Source of the DNA: Chitinophaga sp. MM2321
GTDB lineage: Bacteria > Bacteroidota > Bacteroidia > Chitinophagales > Chitinophagaceae
Reading direction: 5' to 3'
Assembly (NCBI RefSeq): GCF_964033635.1
Contig: NZ_OZ035533.1
Span: forward strand, 5,799,001 to 5,863,000
DNA length: 64,000 nucleotides
The notes beneath the pieces are model-generated. The model searched no databases. It had not been told where the DNA came from and saw only the letters and a list, made by a program, of their open reading frames with translations. Shown in pieces: positions 42,170-51,579 of the stretch (its first letter is position 1; each line of letters opens with the position of its first letter). The position numbers and the translations under genes are program-made.

Positions 42170-42402
42170 ACAAAGAATCATTAATTATAGCACATCCCGG
42201 CCCATCTGCTTTTTGTATAAAAGCTGCTTTGGGCCTGATCATCAGGATCCACATACCTACTTCTGAGTATTTTAATCCCACAAATAAAAGGATATCTTAA
42301 GCCGGAATGGCCAGGCGCCAGGAAAAATAATGGAACGGTTATACCATTGATAATCGCCACGAAACAAGATTAAACCCTATCCTGTTACCTGAAAAGTGAA
42401 AT

Positions 42403-43011
42403 ATGCAAAAGGATCAACAGCAAGAACTGCTGCAACGGAAAGCAGTTATGCAAGATAAATTGGCGGTAAAAAATTTTATTACCACACAAATCCTGGATTG
42501 GCTCCCTGTTTATGATTACCTGTTGGCCCATCATATCAGGCATACCTTACGTTATCTGACCTGTACCAACCAGCAACTACAACCTTATTGGGAAGCATCG
42601 CTGGCTCAATTACCACTGGAACCCTATGGTTTCAATACCAGTCAGCTGTATAACGGAGAAGTATACACGATCCTTGAAAAAACGGATCGCCTTTTCCCTA
42701 ATACATATCCCCTGCGATATGTGCCGGATTTACCCGTATTAACAGATGAACTGATACCTCCGGCTGTTGCTTTGGCACAGGCGGTGGATCATTTACAACT
42801 ACCTGATGGGGAAGTATACCTGTTTTACCAGCGGTTTTCCCCGCTGCTAACCATACAACTGTCTGACCTGATAAGACATGCAGATGAACTAATAAACAGC
42901 TGGTATGCAGATACCAGCATCTGTGCGGCAGACGGCAGCTGGATGATTTTTTATTCTATTGAAGATATTTGGTACAGTGGTTATCCGGCTGCAACGGATA
43001 AACACCCATAA
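42403..43011 (+). CDS. Hypothetical protein preceding the caspase pair
   Basis: Soluble protein of 202 residues, with an N-terminal Gln/Lys-rich helix and many aromatic residues (Tyr/Trp) in the second half. No signal peptide, membrane helix or known domain is seen. It ends 13 bp before the first caspase-like gene, and the duplicated unit of the caspase genes begins at its last codons, so it is likely cotranscribed with them. A cytoplasmic companion of exported proteases is possible; nothing in its sequence shows what it does. Confidence 0.75.
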   Translation: MQKDQQQELLQRKAVMQDKLAVKNFITTQILDWLPVYDYLLAHHIRHTLRYLTCTNQQLQPYWEASLAQLPLEPYGFNTSQLYNGEVYTILEKTDRLFPNTYPLRYVPDLPVLTDELIPPAVALAQAVDHLQLPDGEVYLFYQRFSPLLTIQLSDLIRHADELINSWYADTSICAADGSWMIFYSIEDIWYSGYPAATDKHP

Positions 43012-43024
43012 ACTATGATAAGCT

Positions 43025-46000
43025 ATGAAACAATGCTGGTTATTATTTTTAAGTCTTTTTATACTGCTGGAAGCTGGTGCACAGAAAATATCCTTAACTC
43101 CTAAAAGTGGCCATCAGGATCAGATCTATGCGAGCAATATTGCGCCCAATAACAAATATTTTGTATCGTTGGATCTGTCGGGAAGGGCCATCATCTGGGA
43201 TATCGCCAACGCAGCACAAATGATGCAACTGTCGGATGTATTGGCCATTTCCTTTGCCGCAAACAGCCAGTCGCTGTACGTCGTGCATAAAGATAAAACC
43301 TTTTCCCGCGTGGGATTGAATGGCAAGCGTATTGAGTCCTTGTCAGCGCAGGCTTATAAACCCGGCGTAGATAGAGGCCGGGTATTCTATCCTCTTTCCG
43401 GCATTTATCTTACCGACAATTATATTTTTGATATCAGAAAAGGATATCAAAGAAAATTGGGGGTTCCGGAAGGAAACTATGGCGTTGAGCAGGATTATTC
43501 TCCTGTATTAAACCAGATCGCCGTGGCAGGTTTTAATGGCCAGCTATCCCTGATAGATGTTACCACCGGCGCATTTGTACGTCAGATGAAAACAGGCATT
43601 ATCAGAACGCATTCCACGCTTCCAGCCATAAAATTCTCCCGGAACGGTGAATACGCGGTTGTATATAAATATGATACCATGAGCGTTGTTGATATTGCGG
43701 GAGAAAAAGTGATAAAAAAATTTAATAATACTGTCACCGCCGGGTATTATGCAGCCAATCTTTCACCGGATGGCAAAACCTTGGCCTGGATTGAATCAGG
43801 CAAGATCGTTTCTTATAATATTCCGCAAAATAAAGTCAGGTGGAGTACCATCCATCCCTTGACGGAAGACTATGGCTTTATGTCGGGGAAAGGCACTTTG
43901 CAATTTAACGAAGCGGGAGATAAAATACTCGCCGGTTCCGTGAGCAGGTTTATATGGATGGATGCCTCGACCGGAAAAATTGAAAAAGTTTTCTACAGCG
44001 AAAAGGTCAGGTACTTTGATTACCTAACGGTAGATAAGGAGAATATGAAATTTAGCGGGGTGCAAAATGATAAACGCATATTTTCCTGGGACTTACGTTC
44101 CGGGGCCATGGAACCATTTGATACCTCGTTATTATATGCAGCAGAAAGGGTGATAAAAGATGCCGATTTTAGTATCCGGAAATATCCAAGCAAGGGTAGA
44201 AGAAGTGTCAATGTGAGTCCGGATAAAAGATACATCATGAGCTTCCCGGATGAAAAATGTAAAAAAGAGGCTCAATCAGAAATACTGGTATATGACAGGA
44301 TTGCCAAAAAGAATGTGTTTTCGAAACCCTGCGGCATTACGGATGCTTTCTTTGCAAATACTAAACCCTACATCGCGGTGATGGCGGATAGAGATCCTCA
44401 TTTAGATCTGGAAATATATGATTTAACTACGGGTGCAAAAGTCCACACTTTTCCAGCCCTGGATGCTGGCTGGAGTAGTAACTATATGAATTTTTCTCCC
44501 GACGATAAGTACATCTTCACCAGGTCTAAGACCAAAGGATTTACGATCATTGATCTCGAAACCAAAGCAATAACAACAACGCCACCGGGATACATGCAAA
44601 CCTTTAACCCTGAGTTTTATGGTTTCTTTAGGGGATTTACACCGGATGGAAAGTACGTCATGATGGAGCATAAAGGGCTTTATTTCATGGAGCTCGCCAC
44701 CGGGAAAGTAAACACCTCAATGACCCTGCCGATAACGGATGTAAAACAATATCAGGAAGTACAATTCAGTCCTGATGGCAATTTCTTATTTGTGCGTGGG
44801 TCAGTAGGAAATATTCACCTGATGAACTGGCGTACAAAAAAAGTAGTGGCCAACCTCTATCCTGACATCATAAATGGTACCTGGGCGGTCATAGATATGG
44901 AGGGCAGGTTCGATGGTAACAGCAGCGTATTAAGTTCCATGTACCATGCTTCTGACAAAGATCTCGTGCCCCTGGATGCCATGTTTGAAAAATTCTATAC
45001 GCCCAAATTACTGGCGCGTATCCTCAATGGAGAAAAATTAGATCCTATCCCTGATATCAATAACCTGGATAAGGTGCCTGTTGTAGCGATTAAATTCTCC
45101 GAAGGTTCCCGTAACCTTGTTGTGACCGATGAAGATGAAGTGGAAAAGATCATGACCAAAAACGGCAAAGCTACGCTGACCATTACCGCCACGAGTCCGG
45201 GCGATGGCGTTAGCGAAATAAGGCTATTCCGCAATGGTAAGCTGGTAGAAACCACCCGCAACCTGGTGGTGGAAGACGATGTAAAAAGCAAACGTGAACT
45301 CACAAAAACATATACAATCGATCTGGTGGAAGGCGCCAATACCTTTAAGGCTATCGCGCTAAACAATCAGCGTACAGAAAGCAAGCCCGTAGAACTGATC
45401 GCACAATACCAGCCCGATAAACCAGCGCCCAGCGCAGAGAACAGCTTTCAGATTCATTTACTGGTAGTGGGTATCAACACCTATAAGAATCCGAAGTACA
45501 ACCTGAACTATGCGCTCGCAGATGCTACTGCTTTTAAAAATGTAATTGAAGGCGGTGCCAGGTCTTTATTTTCTAAAGTAAATACCCATTTCATCACCGA
45601 TGCATCGGCCAGTAAAGCCGGTATCATAAAGGCTTTTAACGAAATCAAAACGAATGCACGGCCTAATGACCTCTTTGTATTCTATTATGCAGGTCACGGC
45701 GTTTTAAACGATGCCAAAGATTTCTTCCTCGTCCCTCATGATGTAACGCAGATGTATGGAAAAGAAGATGCCCTGGAAAATAATGGGTTCAGCGCATCTT
45801 TATTACAACAATATTCTAAAGAGATAAAAGCACAGAAACAGTTGTTCATATTAGATGCCTGTCAATCTGCCGGCGCGCTGGAAAATGTAATTGGCGCACG
45901 TGGCGCGCTGGAAGAAAAAGCAATAGCCCAGTTGGCCCGGTCCACCGGTACACATTGGCTCACTGCTTCCGGAAGTGAGCAATTTGCGTCGGAATTCGGG

Positions 46001-46207
46001 CAGCTGGGACACGGTGCATTTACCTGGTGTATTTTACAGGCGTTAAAGGGAGAAGCAGATAATGGCGACAAGAAATTAACCATCAAAGAACTGGATGCCT
46101 ATTTACAACACAAAGTGCCGGATGTAACAGAAAAACATCGCGGATCACCACAGTATCCGGCCAGTTACAGTTATGGAAATGATTTCCCGTTTTTCATTGT
46201 TAAGTAA
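43025..46207 (+). CDS. Exported beta-propeller/caspase-like (peptidase C14) protein, copy 1
   Basis: Predicted exported protein of 1060 residues. Signal peptide MKQCWLLFLSLFILLEAGA, then WD40-like blades over about 25-650 (repeated S-P-D/N-G-K-Y, W-D-I/L and Y-D-L-T-T-G segments), an Ig-like beta domain (about 705-800, GVSEIRLFRNGKLVE), and a caspase-like domain (about 815-1055) with catalytic His891 in YYAGHG and Cys946 in DACQSAG. Both catalytic residues are intact. The propeller probably binds a partner or ligand and the caspase domain cleaves a protein target, outside the cytoplasm. It is followed 34 bp later by an equal-length paralogue. Confidence 0.92.
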   Translation: MKQCWLLFLSLFILLEAGAQKISLTPKSGHQDQIYASNIAPNNKYFVSLDLSGRAIIWDIANAAQMMQLSDVLAISFAANSQSLYVVHKDKTFSRVGLNGKRIESLSAQAYKPGVDRGRVFYPLSGIYLTDNYIFDIRKGYQRKLGVPEGNYGVEQDYSPVLNQIAVAGFNGQLSLIDVTTGAFVRQMKTGIIRTHSTLPAIKFSRNGEYAVVYKYDTMSVVDIAGEKVIKKFNNTVTAGYYAANLSPDGKTLAWIESGKIVSYNIPQNKVRWSTIHPLTEDYGFMSGKGTLQFNEAGDKILAGSVSRFIWMDASTGKIEKVFYSEKVRYFDYLTVDKENMKFSGVQNDKRIFSWDLRSGAMEPFDTSLLYAAERVIKDADFSIRKYPSKGRRSVNVSPDKRYIMSFPDEKCKKEAQSEILVYDRIAKKNVFSKPCGITDAFFANTKPYIAVMADRDPHLDLEIYDLTTGAKVHTFPALDAGWSSNYMNFSPDDKYIFTRSKTKGFTIIDLETKAITTTPPGYMQTFNPEFYGFFRGFTPDGKYVMMEHKGLYFMELATGKVNTSMTLPITDVKQYQEVQFSPDGNFLFVRGSVGNIHLMNWRTKKVVANLYPDIINGTWAVIDMEGRFDGNSSVLSSMYHASDKDLVPLDAMFEKFYTPKLLARILNGEKLDPIPDINNLDKVPVVAIKFSEGSRNLVVTDEDEVEKIMTKNGKATLTITATSPGDGVSEIRLFRNGKLVETTRNLVVEDDVKSKRELTKTYTIDLVEGANTFKAIALNNQRTESKPVELIAQYQPDKPAPSAENSFQIHLLVVGINTYKNPKYNLNYALADATAFKNVIEGGARSLFSKVNTHFITDASASKAGIIKAFNEIKTNARPNDLFVFYYAGHGVLNDAKDFFLVPHDVTQMYGKEDALENNGFSASLLQQYSKEIKAQKQLFILDACQSAGALENVIGARGALEEKAIAQLARSTGTHWLTASGSEQFASEFGQLGHGAFTWCILQALKGEADNGDKKLTIKELDAYLQHKVPDVTEKHRGSPQYPASYSYGNDFPFFIVK

Positions 46208-46241
46208 AGGTATCAGGTAATACCATAAACTATGATAAGTT

Positions 46242-49200
46242 ATGAAGCAGTGTTGGTTACTATTTTTTAGTCTTTTCATACTATGGGAGGCTACCGCACA
46301 GAAAATATCCTTGTCGCCCAAAACGGCCCATCGGGACAACCTCACCATGAGCGATATTGCCCCCAATAACAAGTATTTTGCGTCGTTAGATACAAGCGGC
46401 CTCGCCATCATCTGGGATATAGCCAACGGCGCCCAAATGATGCAATTAAAGGGCATACGGGGTATTGCGTTTGCGGCCAACAGCCAGTCACTGTACGTAT
46501 CGCATAAAGATTTATCCTTTTCCCGTGTGGGGTTAAATGGTAAGCTTATTGAATCCCTGTCTACGAAAACTTATAAAATCGACTCAGACATAGGCGGCGC
46601 ATTCTATCCGCTTTCCGATATTTATCTTTTGGGAGGTCATATGTTTGATATACGGAAAGGATATCTAAAGAAGTTGGGCATGCTCAATAAAGATTTTGGT
46701 ACTGAACAGGACTACTCTCCCGTATTAAACCAGATAGCGATGGCAGGTTACAACGGTTGGCTATCCCTGATGGACGGCAGCACCGGCGCAGTTGTTCACA
46801 AGATTAAGACCGATATTTCAATAACGAATTGGACGCCGCCGAAGGTGTTTTTTTCCAGAAACGGTGAAGCCGCAGTCGTATTTAAACCCGACTCCCTCAG
46901 TGTTGTTGATATTGCCGCAGGCAAAGTGATAAAAACAATCGTTCCGCCCAAAACCAATTTTTTTGCAGCTCATCTTTCTCCGGATGGTAAAACAGTGGCC
47001 TGGGTCGAAGAAAAGAAGATTGTTTCTTATAATATTGCGCAAAATAAAATCAGGTGGAGTGTTGCCCATCCATTCTCAAGCCGCTTGAATTTGGGGGGCG
47101 GTACTTTGAAATTTAATGAAGCGGGAGATAAAATACTCGCCGGTTCCGGGGGCGAATTTGTATGGATGGATGCGTTGACCGGGAAGATTGAAAAAACTTT
47201 TTACGGCGAAGCGGTCGGATTCTACCATTCCTTCACGTTAGACAAGGAGAACATGAAAATGAGGGCGACACAAAATTATGAACGCATATTTTCCTGGGAC
47301 TTACGTTCCGGTGCGATGGAGCCATTTGATACCTCCTGCTTATATACTGCAGGGAAAGTGATAAAAGATGTTGATTTTAGTATCCGGAAATACCCAAAAA
47401 AAGGTAGAAGTAGTGTTGATGTGAGTCCGGATGGGAGATACATCATGAGCTTCCCGGACGAAAAATGCAAAGAAGAATCACAATCAGAAATACTGGTATA
47501 TGACAGGATTACTAAAAAGAACGTGTTTTCGAAACCCTGCGGCTTCACGGAGACTCGCTTTGTCAATACCAAACCCTACATCGCGCTAGTGGTGGATAAA
47601 AACCCTCATAGAGATCTGGAGATCTACGATTTGACCACCGGCGCAAAGATCCACACCTTTCCAAACCTGGATATTAGCTGGAGTAGTGGCAATATGTATT
47701 TTTCACCCGATGACCGGTACTTCATCGCCCAAACCAAGACCCAAGGATTTACCATCGCAGATCTCGAAACCAAAGAAATAAAAACGATACCGCCGGAGTA
47801 TCTGCAAACCTTCAACCCGAATTTCCATGGTTCCATCTGGGGATTTACACCGGATGGAAAGTACGTTGTGCTGGCGCTTGACGCGCTCTATTTCATGGAA
47901 CTCGCCAGTGGAAAAGTGAACCCTTCACTCACCCTGCCGGCAACGGAGGTAGGACAATTTGGGGAAGTGAGTTTCACACCGGATGGCAACTTCATCTTTA
48001 TAGAATATACAAAAAATTTCACGGGATATATGTGCGTGATGGACCGGCGCACCAAAAAAGTAGTGGCCAATCTATATCCGGACATCTACAAAGGTAATTG
48101 GGCGGTCGTAGATATGGAAGGCAGGTTCGATGGCAACAGTGGCGTATTAAGCACCATGTACCATGCAACCGACAAGGAACTCGTCCCCCTGGATGCCATG
48201 TTTGAGAAATTCTATACGCCCAGATTACTGGCGCGTATCCTCAACGGAGAGAAATTAGATCCGATTCCCGATCTCAACAACCTCAACAAAGTACCGACGG
48301 TGGCGATTACATTCTCCGAAGGCGCCCGTAACCTCCTGGTATCTGATGAAACTGACACGGAAAAAATCATGACCAAAAACGGTAAGGCTACGCTGACCAT
48401 TACCGCCACCAGTCCGGGCGATGGCGTTAGCGAAATAAGGCTATTCCGCAATGGTAAACTGGTAGAAACCACCCGCAACCTGGTGGTGGAAGACGATGTA
48501 AAAAGCAAACGTGAACTCTCAAAAACATATACAATCGATCTGGTGGAAGGCGCCAATACCTTTAAGGCCATCGCGCTCAATAGTCAACGTACAGAAAGCA
48601 AGCCCGTAGAGCTGATCGCACAATACCAGCCCGATAAACCAGCGCCCAGCGCAGAGAGCAGCTTTCAGATTCATTTACTGGTAGTGGGTATCAATGCCTA
48701 TAAAAATCCAAAGTACAACCTGAACTATGCACTCGCAGATGCTACCGCTTTTAAAAATGTAATTGAAGGCGGTGCCAGGTCTTTATTTTCTAAAGTAAAT
48801 ACCCATTTCATCACCGATGCATCGGCCAGTAAAGCCGGTATCATGAAGGCTTTTAACGAAATTAAAACGAATGCACGGCCTAATGATCTCTTTGTATTCT
48901 ATTATGCGGGTCACGGCGTTTTAAACGATGCCAAAGATTTCTTCCTCGTTCCGCATGATGTGACGCAGATGTATGGAAAGGAAGATGCCCTGGAAAATAA
49001 TGGGTTCAGCGCATCTTTATTACAACAATATTCTAAAGAGATAAAAGCACAGAAACAGTTGTTCATATTAGATGCATGTCAATCCGCCGGTGCGCTGGAA
49101 AATGTAGTTGGCGCACGTGGCGCGCTGGAAGAAAAAGCAATAGCCCAGTTGGCCCGGTCCACCGGTACACATTGGCTCACTGCTTCCGGAAGTGAACAAT

Positions 49201-49424
49201 TTGCATCGGAATTCGGACAGCTGGGACACGGTGCATTTACCTGGTGTATTTTACAGGCATTAAAGGGAGAAGCAGATAATGGCGACAAGAAATTAACCAT
49301 TAAAGAACTGGACGCCTATTTACAACACAAAGTGCCGGATGTAACAGAAAAACATCGCGGATCACCACAGTATCCGGCCAGTTACAGTTATGGAAATGAT
49401 TTCCCGTTTTTCATTGTTAAGTAA
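46242..49424 (+). CDS. Exported beta-propeller/caspase-like (peptidase C14) protein, copy 2
   Basis: Tandem paralogue of copy 1 with exactly the same length (1060 residues) and domain order: signal peptide, propeller, Ig-like domain, caspase-like domain with His891 and Cys946. From about residue 707 to the end I count only six amino-acid differences from copy 1 (T/S, N/S, N/S, T/A, I/M, I/V); before that roughly a third of positions differ. Equal catalytic halves with different propellers suggest one enzymatic activity with two recognition specificities. ridA follows, with its own probable promoter. Confidence 0.92.
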   Translation: MKQCWLLFFSLFILWEATAQKISLSPKTAHRDNLTMSDIAPNNKYFASLDTSGLAIIWDIANGAQMMQLKGIRGIAFAANSQSLYVSHKDLSFSRVGLNGKLIESLSTKTYKIDSDIGGAFYPLSDIYLLGGHMFDIRKGYLKKLGMLNKDFGTEQDYSPVLNQIAMAGYNGWLSLMDGSTGAVVHKIKTDISITNWTPPKVFFSRNGEAAVVFKPDSLSVVDIAAGKVIKTIVPPKTNFFAAHLSPDGKTVAWVEEKKIVSYNIAQNKIRWSVAHPFSSRLNLGGGTLKFNEAGDKILAGSGGEFVWMDALTGKIEKTFYGEAVGFYHSFTLDKENMKMRATQNYERIFSWDLRSGAMEPFDTSCLYTAGKVIKDVDFSIRKYPKKGRSSVDVSPDGRYIMSFPDEKCKEESQSEILVYDRITKKNVFSKPCGFTETRFVNTKPYIALVVDKNPHRDLEIYDLTTGAKIHTFPNLDISWSSGNMYFSPDDRYFIAQTKTQGFTIADLETKEIKTIPPEYLQTFNPNFHGSIWGFTPDGKYVVLALDALYFMELASGKVNPSLTLPATEVGQFGEVSFTPDGNFIFIEYTKNFTGYMCVMDRRTKKVVANLYPDIYKGNWAVVDMEGRFDGNSGVLSTMYHATDKELVPLDAMFEKFYTPRLLARILNGEKLDPIPDLNNLNKVPTVAITFSEGARNLLVSDETDTEKIMTKNGKATLTITATSPGDGVSEIRLFRNGKLVETTRNLVVEDDVKSKRELSKTYTIDLVEGANTFKAIALNSQRTESKPVELIAQYQPDKPAPSAESSFQIHLLVVGINAYKNPKYNLNYALADATAFKNVIEGGARSLFSKVNTHFITDASASKAGIMKAFNEIKTNARPNDLFVFYYAGHGVLNDAKDFFLVPHDVTQMYGKEDALENNGFSASLLQQYSKEIKAQKQLFILDACQSAGALENVVGARGALEEKAIAQLARSTGTHWLTASGSEQFASEFGQLGHGAFTWCILQALKGEADNGDKKLTIKELDAYLQHKVPDVTEKHRGSPQYPASYSYGNDFPFFIVK

Positions 49425-49430
49425 AGGCAA

Positions 49431-49905: not shown

Positions 49906-51579
49906 TTATTTCTTTCCAAACAAAGTAGCGGCTAACCTTGCATCATGGCCATACACATCATCCCGGAAATTCAGATTGCCTTTACTATCTACAAATGCCG
50001 TGAAGTAGCCTATAAATACCGGAATCCTTTCTTTTAACGTCACATATTTTTCTTTGCCGGCATTCATGGCAGCATCAATTTTCTTTTCTGTCCAGGTGGA
50101 ATCATCACGCAGCAGCCATTCTGCCAGATGCTTGGGTTCTGCTACCCTGATACAGCCATGACTGAAAGAACGTTTGTTCTCTCCAAAAAGATAGCGTGCA
50201 GGCGTATCATGCAGGTAAATATTATACTCATTGGGAAACAGGAACTTCACTTTACCCAGTGAATTTTTGGGACCAGGACGCTGCCGTACTATATAAGGAA
50301 AATTACCACCGGAATATTTATTAAAGTTGATGGAACCCGGAGAGATGACCTTTCCGCTGGCGCCTACTATTTCCATATTTTGTCTTGCCAGATAGCTGCC
50401 GGCACCGCGTTTGAGGCCAGGCAATACTTCTTTCGCCAGGATGCCCGGCGGTACATTCCAATATGGACTAAACACTACATAGCGTAACTCTTTGGTGAAG
50501 ATGACCGTGTTAGCACCCGGCTTTCCTACTACCACATTACAGCTCCAGTCCAGTTTACCTTTATCGTATACATGCATTCTGAATTCGGGAATATTCACCA
50601 GGATATAATCGGTAGTGGGTTCCAGCGGCACCCAGCGTAAACGTTCCATATTTATCAGCACCTGGCTGATCCGTTGCGCTATCGGGGTGTTCAATGCATC
50701 CAATACATTTTGTTTAATAAGACCATCTACTTTCATGCCCATACGCAGTTGAAAGTTGCGCACCGCACTATCCAACTCCACGGTAAACCGGCTACTGGTA
50801 TCAGTTCCCGGCAAATCACCCCATGCTTCCAGCCTGTTTTTAATCGTCGCAATAACAGCAGCGGAATCTCCCTTTTTAAAACTTTTCTGGGTGGTTTTAA
50901 TAGAATCCCATTTCGTAGATGCTTCCAGGTTAGCCAGTCTTTTCAGTTCGTTGCGCAGTAATTTGTATTGCCTGTTTACCGGCTCGTCTTCTTCAAAAGC
51001 ATTGGATTTTTTATTGACCATAGAGTCCAGCAGGCTGGCCATATCTATTTTCTTCCGTGGAATAAACCATTCCAGGTCTTTGGCAGAATCGGCGGTAAGA
51101 CCGCCCCACACTTTATTGCCATAGGCAAAAAACTGTGCAGTGAGCAGCATTTCAAGACGTGGAATGGAAGTATCTCCTGGCTTTAATCCTACATCGCTCA
51201 CCAGCAGGGTGTCTGTCAATTTTTGCAGTGCAGGGTTCATCAGGCTGCTATCCCTGATGCCATAGGCGGCATCGTTCTTCATCATATTTATGAAGTTGCC
51301 TGCCTGTTCTGTCAACCCATCCTTATTAATCCATGCATAGTGATAACCGCGTTTGCGGTAGAAGTTCTGAATATATTCATCATATGCATCGTATGCATGA
51401 TTTGCGGACAGAAAGCTGTTCACGTAGTTGCTGTCCAGCGATTGTTCAATGTATTCTTCCTTGCTGTAATGAGTGGTATCTCTGGCTTTCGGCTGCTTCC
51501 GAACACCGCTTTGCTGCTGGCAGGCAGCAAAAATAAACAGGGCCAGTAAGGTGAATGAGGCGTAAAGACGTATAGTCAT
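49906..51579 (-). CDS. L,D-transpeptidase, YcbB-type lipoprotein
   Basis: Envelope enzyme of 557 residues that forms or remodels L,D-crosslinks in peptidoglycan. A lipoprotein signal ends in the lipobox FAAC (Cys near 20). A helical N-terminal scaffold domain, a peptidoglycan-binding-like helical segment (about 235-300, FQLRMGMKVDGLIKQNVLDALN) and the YkuD catalytic domain (about 325-490) follow, with the motif SHGCIRV. The long size, the scaffold and the extended capping loop before the active site fit YcbB/LdtD relatives rather than small ErfK proteins. Confidence 0.92.
   Translation of the reverse strand: MTIRLYASFTLLALFIFAACQQQSGVRKQPKARDTTHYSKEEYIEQSLDSNYVNSFLSANHAYDAYDEYIQNFYRKRGYHYAWINKDGLTEQAGNFINMMKNDAAYGIRDSSLMNPALQKLTDTLLVSDVGLKPGDTSIPRLEMLLTAQFFAYGNKVWGGLTADSAKDLEWFIPRKKIDMASLLDSMVNKKSNAFEEDEPVNRQYKLLRNELKRLANLEASTKWDSIKTTQKSFKKGDSAAVIATIKNRLEAWGDLPGTDTSSRFTVELDSAVRNFQLRMGMKVDGLIKQNVLDALNTPIAQRISQVLINMERLRWVPLEPTTDYILVNIPEFRMHVYDKGKLDWSCNVVVGKPGANTVIFTKELRYVVFSPYWNVPPGILAKEVLPGLKRGAGSYLARQNMEIVGASGKVISPGSINFNKYSGGNFPYIVRQRPGPKNSLGKVKFLFPNEYNIYLHDTPARYLFGENKRSFSHGCIRVAEPKHLAEWLLRDDSTWTEKKIDAAMNAGKEKYVTLKERIPVFIGYFTAFVDSKGNLNFRDDVYGHDARLAATLFGKK

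Follow-up and report, generated by a model that had tools for sequence, protein, structure and literature searches.

Tandem caspases with recombining propeller and protease halves in Chitinophaga sp. MM2321, and a candidate papain partner predicted to be exported

Why should two neighbouring bacterial genes of exactly the same length be almost identical in their last third and differ so widely before it? The question is raised by genes A and B, which lie in a 64,000-nucleotide stretch of the Chitinophaga sp. MM2321 genome (contig NZ_OZ035533.1, positions 5,799,001 to 5,863,000, forward strand), referred to below as the window. Both encode predicted exported proteases of the caspase type, in which an N-terminal part with predicted WD40 propellers precedes the catalytic domain. 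The explanation favoured here for the pair, with a probability of about 45%, is that it belongs to an extracytoplasmic processing cascade of caspase and papain proteases with exchangeable recognition modules. The evidence consists of the anatomy of the pair, the recombination of its two halves, a papain-type partner that co-occurs with such caspases in relatives and a short, otherwise rare motif common to both proteases; together they suggest a system of two proteases beyond the cell membrane that has so far gone unstudied.

Gene A (43025-46207, plus strand) and gene B (46242-49424, plus strand) stand in tandem with 34 bp between them, and a 19-bp stretch ahead of A (43006-43024, plus strand) recurs with one change ahead of B (46223-46241). 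The open reading frame (ORF) list and the alignment bear out the preliminary description of this DNA, which had reported two adjacent genes of 1060 codons with a His891/Cys946 pair. In A, the caspase domain (PF00656) occupies residues 809-1060 (45449-46204, plus strand); it scores 60.3 bits in each protein, the gathering cut-off being 21.4. His891 is the histidine of YYAGHG (codon 45695-45697) and Cys946 the cysteine of DACQS (codon 45860-45862, both plus strand), and this dyad is kept in all 130 aligned homologues, a set made up of A, B, 23 array copies and the members of 1000-1250 residues among the best 120 of 819 matches, with some rows near-identical. With A as query, the 6.78-Mb genome yielded no gene other than A and B, and the nearest protein outside this genome, P0003, is 51% identical.

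WD40-type Pfam matches are found in the N-terminal part of both proteins, in A as far as residue 611. An AlphaFold model, built for gene A only and from 22 sequences, has a mean predicted local distance difference test (pLDDT) of 74.7 and a predicted template modelling score (pTM) of 0.64, and it places propeller-type strands up to about residue 615, further strands at 686-795 and then the caspase region. Fold comparison of the model retrieves WD40 propellers such as 2ymu, Apaf-1 and G-beta, together with tandem WD proteins such as Utp21, Pwp2 and 1nr0, which suggests that A carries two tandem WD40 propellers across residues 28-615 (43106-44869, plus strand); by our own reading of the modelled strands, the first spans roughly 28-316 and the second 320-615. 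Propellers fill both comparison lists, and no caspase chain is among the best 50 matches of either. Residues 686-795 (45080-45409, plus strand) appear to form a weakly immunoglobulin-like (Ig-like) beta-sandwich linker, as indicated by the modelled strands and by Big_7 matches below the Pfam cut-off (E 0.029 in A, 0.036 in B). Of the layout described earlier, the caspase stands, as does the signal peptide by a crude rule, which likewise supports the suggested export; the single propeller becomes two in the model, and the Ig-like domain is reduced to the sub-threshold match and the strands. Pfam searches at E up to 0.1 found neither a death domain nor, among C-terminal sorting tails of type IX secretion cargo, the PF18962 type that they covered in A or B.

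The alignment of the two proteins comprises 1063 columns with three gap columns per side, all before column 594. From column 710 onward only six positions differ, as had been reported for the last 355 or so residues, and before it identity ranges from 0.40 to 0.96 in 25-column windows. The synonymous divergence (dS) is 0.72 and the non-synonymous divergence (dN) 0.208 over columns 1-711, compared with 0.14 and 0.007 over columns 712-1063. The best single change point of synonymous differences falls at column 718 (log-likelihood ratio 44.3, matched by 0 of 1000 column permutations) and that of non-synonymous differences at column 709, placing the step at residues 706-715, which correspond to roughly 45140-45169 in gene A and 48357-48386 in gene B. 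The abrupt change of identity noticed earlier near 45150/48367 is thereby confirmed, divergence along the genes not being uniform. The homogenised stretches run from about residue 711 of A (45155-46207, plus strand) and from the matching point of B (48372-49424, plus strand), both starts being approximate. Because silent sites step as well, purifying selection alone does not account for the pattern, and the step is best read as recombination, in which either one copy converted the other or one part was replaced. A low dS as a built-in property of the protease half was rejected on the evidence of eight pairs read as orthologues, in which the C-terminal side is silently more diverged in five, less diverged in two and without a significant step in one. 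The earlier proposal of gene conversion or of selection for a diverse propeller thus holds for recombination of the protease half, and positive selection in the propeller was rejected as an explanation for the gene as a whole, no 60-codon propeller window having a dN/dS above 1 (highest 0.65).

The same separation of the two halves is seen across the family, whose members keep a conserved protease half beside very variable propellers, as the preliminary description had anticipated. In 147 of the 8385 pairs among the 130 homologues (rows that are not independent), the protease halves are at least 80% identical and the propellers less than 35%. For 60 copies from multi-copy genomes or loci, the closest protease half comes from the same genome or locus 11 times and the closest propeller three times, two of these three being A and B themselves. 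Trees were built from 45 of the 91 distinct sequences of at least 900 residues that were left after identical ones had been removed from an ORF set that holds some genomes twice (L060-L066 versus L072, L075, L076, L078 and L093) and includes truncated ORFs. Those of the N and C halves conflict: in Mucilaginibacter pedocola (L088), the two intact copies are sisters in the protease half, and their propellers fall beside those from two further genomes. Approximately unbiased tests, made on quick trees of which that of the propellers is long-branched, rejected the groupings of the other half in four of four cases for the C half (p 1.9e-5, 1.0e-4, 3.7e-9 and 5.2e-4) and in four of four for the N half (p 8.0e-5, 2.8e-4, 4e-62 and 6e-101). 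A silent-site change point was found in nine of ten close pairs, each matched by 0 of 300 permutations, and eight of the nine lie between residues 578 and 970 in the numbering of gene A.

Propeller and protease halves thus recombine across the family, as judged from these sequences, yet homogenisation within arrays is only occasional according to four-gene comparisons. The orthologue pattern is ahead in both halves in six of six comparisons, on which ground constant conversion inside arrays was rejected. One Limnovirga comparison loses this pattern in the caspase part, with 19 orthologue, 17 same-genome and 16 crossed sites from alignment column 950. For Marinifilum, Planctomycetes and Mucilaginibacter, the four-gene patterns gave no support to in-array conversion as the source of those orthologue pairs in which the C half has diverged more. 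The Marinifilum orthologues L110 and L112 (8426-14276) have an N-terminal dS of 0.05 and 0.14 and a protease-half dS of 0.32 and 0.33, the reverse of the A/B pair. Separately, the C-half tree contains two old classes of caspase (100* at both forks); in several arrays a single first-class copy stands beside more numerous ones of the second class, and A and B both belong to the first.

Relatives of the pair in the genome contigs were reached only with a family alignment, a single-sequence scan of these contigs having returned none. Among the best 80 matches of the alignment scan, at least 73 loci were distinguished, distributed over Bacteroidota, Verrucomicrobia/Opitutales, Planctomycetota and one Nitrospirae bin. 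In many of them a papain (PF00112) with a DUF4384 domain is followed by one to four caspase genes; L094, whose contig ends upstream, has about six caspases. Caspase-to-caspase spacings are below 100 bp in 26 of 47 cases, and the crude rule gives 19 of 23 papain-DUF4384 proteins a signal peptide. Where 1.8 kb or more of upstream sequence is available, a papain precedes the caspases in 22 of 38 loci with long caspases versus one of 11 with short ones. Many related loci hold a single caspase copy, an outcome that the preliminary description had counted against its own proposal and that is therefore seen in part. Database protein P0097 unites papain, DUF4384, propeller and caspase in one chain. 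A papain-caspase fusion in L102 was rejected, since it appears to be two overlapping frames of the ORF list, and a papain domain is absent, at E up to 0.001, from the 1651-residue caspase of L090.

Across 195 family genomes, a strong papain and a strong caspase occur in the same nine (Fisher 1e-15, a value that ignores phylogeny and linkage), with at most four candidates scored per genome in one scan and at most seven in the papain scan. The weakest of the nine papains scores 217.8 bits, and the next genome has 155.4 (a partial match, 36% identical). The window genome has one such papain, G000:C1:7679-9202. It shares 53% identity with the papain of L067, its matches in the 78 other genomes of the genus do not go beyond 35% identity, and it lies about 0.94 Mb from A and B if the chromosome is circular. 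An FG-GAP repeat protein of 666 residues (G000:C1:5552-7552, L150) is encoded on the same strand 126 bp before it. In another member of the genus, a distant papain (31%) adjoins a caspase-domain match (G063:C6:73241-75297), and papain-caspase pairing may be wider than this family.

The two proteases share a short motif, [ST]RNLxVxDD. Its copies in A are RNLVVTDE (residues 696-703, 45110-45133) and RNLVVEDD (residues 745-752, 45257-45280), 49 residues apart, and in B RNLLVSDE (48327-48350) and RNLVVEDD (48474-48497), all on the plus strand. Two copies of this type are present in 114 of the 130 caspase homologues and one in the other 16. Arg745 is kept in 130 and Arg696 in 129 of them while the propellers vary; Arg745 is followed by Asn in 124 and by Gly in 6, and the Leu, Val and acidic positions past the arginine are also conserved. 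Several Verrucomicrobia and Planctomycetota caspases have the form TRGLxVED. In papains that carry it, the motif lies around DUF4384, in a loop before this domain and, in 10, in a second one after it; of the 26 papains, 10 have two copies, 8 have one and 8 have none. Across the ORFs of these loci, the pattern R[NG]L.[VI].[DEN][DE] matched 87 of 137 caspases, 18 of the 26 papains and, among the 1440 remaining ORFs, a single one. A motif-bearing caspase is present in 24 of 25 papain-containing loci, the exception, L120, having a weak papain match. The motif also occurs in 19 of 46 loci with no papain in view, which by our own reading are contigs ending upstream, extra loci of papain-holding genomes, or the window itself.

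When the pattern was back-translated and searched for in 15 whole genomes, that of L110 being left out, 76 of 89 matches fell in caspase or papain genes (31 of 35 plus 45 of 54), where sites in G271-G275 were assigned through the distances in L088, L080, L089, L077 and L085 and one papain site of G225, present in two contigs, may be counted twice. The 13 matches outside do not exceed the 17 of a reversed-pattern control, and further motif-bearing proteins were not accepted on this basis. In the window genome the pattern matched four times, once in each motif loop of A and B. A profile comparison of papain and caspase detected the motif as their sole similarity; homology around it was rejected, as the alignment covers 15 residues only, and in the papains compared the motif lies in stretches that other papains lack. 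The motif loops of both proteases are modelled as disordered: pLDDT falls below 50 at residues 702-704 and 746-753 of A, overlapping the loops, and at 340-350 of the window genome papain (mean pLDDT 87.1), whose motif arginine is residue 340.

The catalytic site suggests how such a motif might be used. A sequence search of the PDB with the caspase domain gave ten matches at E up to 0.1, all of them MALT1 (E 0.0025-0.0046). Asp944, which lies two residues before the catalytic cysteine and is present in 130 of 130 homologues, aligns with the Asp preceding the MALT1 active-site Cys, in an alignment in which the numbering of the MALT1 letters is presumed. An invariant acidic residue at an S1 position makes cutting after arginine likely for the A and B caspases. 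In the portion of PMC4357240 drawn on here, Asp365, Asp462 and Glu500 set the arginine specificity of MALT1. Asp833, invariant in the first helix, is at a guess the counterpart of Asp365; Glu990 was considered as that of Glu500 and dropped after the alignment with MALT1. Both proteases have flexible loops with an invariant arginine and, next to it, Asn or Gly, which suggests the caspase as the enzyme that cleaves these loops, in itself and in the papain.

The pair lies in a segment that is best read, from comparison of genomes, as an insertion in this lineage (42197-49429, unstranded; about 7.2 kb, ends approximate). This stretch is unmatched in blastn against L153, L154 and L155, and its GC content is 0.444 against 0.451 for the window. 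In a synteny comparison of 26 of the 79 genus genomes, the flanking genes are 7761 bp apart in the window genome and 464-1969 bp apart in the other 25, where the site is therefore too short for the pair. None of the other 78 genus genomes contains a full-length caspase relative. The segment also contains a 202-aa ORF (42403-43011, plus strand), 13 bp before gene A, with no signal peptide by the crude rule; it was rejected as a conserved partner, being found only in its own genome among the 79 and matching only itself in the protein database. On one side, the flank encodes a 3-hydroxyacyl-CoA dehydrogenase of C-terminal type and, on the other, RidA and a protein (49906-51579) that, from its sequence, we take to be an L,D-transpeptidase. 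No STAND, MoxR, vWA or EAD component or nucleoside triphosphatase (NTPase) was found in the four window neighbours or the neighbours of relatives that were scanned.

Related loci contain other genes as well. In Limnovirga-type arrays (L060 330-2809; L072 2139-4618; L062; L065), two proteins without a clear Pfam match, one of 603 residues (74% identity between genomes) and one of 213 residues (47%), are encoded either between papain and caspases or within the row of caspase genes. In L068 (11827-13209), L071 (8259-9671) and L089 (6198-7601), a caspase gene is followed by one for a protein of 460-470 residues whose start resembles a signal peptide; those of L068 and L071 have no Pfam match and are 47% identical to each other. 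Caspases of about 780-800 residues, with neither papain neighbour nor motif, occur in L126, L127, L129, L131, L132, L139 and L143, and these, mostly from Cyclobacteriaceae, may serve as natural controls. The papain partner, the shared motif and the insertion go beyond the preliminary description, whose observation is confirmed and whose interpretation is partly supported.

In the cascade proposed here, A and B would be exported cysteine proteases, periplasmic or at the surface, with the two-propeller part serving as recognition module and the C-terminal third as an orthocaspase- or paracaspase-type protease predicted to cut after arginine. Binding of a ligand by the propellers would bring caspases together, after which the caspase would cut behind the arginine of its own [ST]RNLxVxDD loops, at two sites, and free the protease from the propeller. 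It would also cut the papain in the loop before DUF4384, and in the second loop where one is present, handing the signal to a second protease. The processing at the motif, the arginine specificity, the order of the proteases and the sensing of a ligand are steps that we infer. Recombination would spread protease halves among differing propellers, so that one output could serve several recognition modules. The fuller claim, offered tentatively and at clearly less than even odds, is of a two-protease cascade outside the cytoplasm, found widely in Bacteroidota and also, in related form, in Verrucomicrobia and Planctomycetota. In it, caspases whose propellers are exchangeable and whose protease half recombines would activate both themselves and the papain-DUF4384 protein, with RNLxVxDD as a private cleavage tag. 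If true, receptor-triggered caspase signalling would have a bacterial counterpart, one that is extracytoplasmic and free of NTPases.

Several points weigh against this cascade. The motif is missing from the papains of L069, L070, L090, L100, L102, L104, L120 and L140 (the last having the near form RNLITEDD), and L069 and L070 are the loci closest to A and B in both trees; it is likewise missing from 50 of the 137 caspase ORFs, truncated ORFs and papain-less loci included. The papain of the window genome is unlinked and has a single motif copy. Co-occurrence of papain and caspase is partly a matter of linkage and shared descent, and the papain score cut was chosen after the list had been viewed. 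Of 379 other ORFs of at least 300 residues, 143 likewise pass the crude signal-peptide rule, the gene A caspase model is of modest confidence, and the residue aligned with Glu500 of MALT1 is Ala988, which is not acidic. Conserved motifs in loops may, moreover, serve for docking rather than for cutting. In this main rival, the caspase, DUF4384 or another receptor would bind the loops as an assembly tag and hold caspase and papain together with no cutting there. The motif does recur in both partners, with one or two copies in each where present, in loops, and its Leu, Val and acidic positions are conserved. Such conservation past the arginine exceeds the needs of most protease sites, and WD40 propellers commonly bind short motifs. 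The propellers, however, vary while the motif is constant, which makes a propeller unlikely as the receptor, and both the Asn or Gly after Arg745 and the Asp at the S1 position fit arginine cutting; docking is considered possible but doubtful.

Less probable still is a pseudosubstrate role, in which the arginine of each loop would sit in the caspase S1 pocket and silence the caspase (in cis) and the papain complex until the propeller is occupied. The motif copies do adjoin the protease domain, and a precedent exists in RgpB, an arginine-specific clan CD protease held by an arginine-bearing loop of its own prodomain (PMC4357240, in part). This role leaves the papain copy and the presence of two copies per protein unexplained. 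An ordinary tandem duplication followed by one gene conversion, with A and B as redundant exported degradative proteases that sense nothing, is the least probable of the alternatives. It agrees with the lack of any dN/dS above 1, with the frequency of single-copy loci and with the lead of the orthologue pattern in every four-gene comparison. Against it, the conflict between propeller and protease trees recurs in other genomes, and an insertion in a single species of the genus, combined with tight partner co-occurrence, is unlike housekeeping.

Bacterial relatives of caspases are mostly treated as intracellular effectors of death or defence with unknown substrates. For the caspase-papain cascade, in contrast, the sequence itself points to a likely substrate, namely the partner papain and the caspase, and to a likely cut site; it also supplies a genetic partner and reveals recognition and protease halves exchanged independently. 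Among titles, the starts of abstracts and few subscription papers, in which the motif letters were not searched as text, no paper on an exported papain-caspase operon was found, and the papers naming DUF4384 together with caspase among those listed concern orthocaspases. Bacteroidetes metacaspases have been reported (PMC4933709), in the available text of which the words WD40 and papain are absent, and targeted diversification of putative sensors uses retroelements according to the excerpted PMC10907252.

Among known systems, the prokaryotic orthocaspases and bacterial metacaspases surveyed by Asplund-Samuelsson (2012, PMC3501461) resemble the A/B family in their WD40 companions and multi-caspase operons. 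In the sections used here, WD40 is the most frequent companion domain (73 sequences, 10.9%), operons with two or three caspases are described, Bacteroidetes included, and proteolysis domains, not all named, are counted in 23 operons. They differ in that section 13 of that paper contains no papain partner or shared motif, and the WD40 types named in the passages drawn on are NACHT-WD40 and WD40-TPR. Caspase conflict systems, as outlined in part of Kaur (2020, PMC7159879), combine a caspase effector with variable partner modules, and the EACC1-associated caspase models NF047832 and PADLOC PDLC02987 match the A/B caspase domain. NF047832, however, scores 88.7 where 140 is required, the neighbours scanned include no NTPase, vWA or EAD partner, and A and B are predicted to act outside the cytoplasm. 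The gingipain RgpB (family C25) comes from Bacteroidota. It shares clan CD, arginine at P1 and self-processing at prodomain arginines (excerpt of PMC4357240) with the reading given here, and differs in belonging to another family, in lacking a propeller and in using type IX secretion with a C-terminal domain, whereas A and B have no PF18962 tail. MALT1 (C14, subfamily C14B) is also among the close systems. A and B have the features of family C14, in the PF00656 score and the dyad, and the acidic S1 residue of C14B, Asp944, and MALT1 accounts for the only solved structures matched by sequence; Ig-like domains adjoin the protease in MALT1 (excerpt of PMC4357240), as the weakly Ig-like linker does in the A model. 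The Chitinophaga proteins differ from it in being bacterial and predicted exported, in carrying propellers in place of a death domain, in Ala988, and in their papain partner and RNLxVxDD loops.

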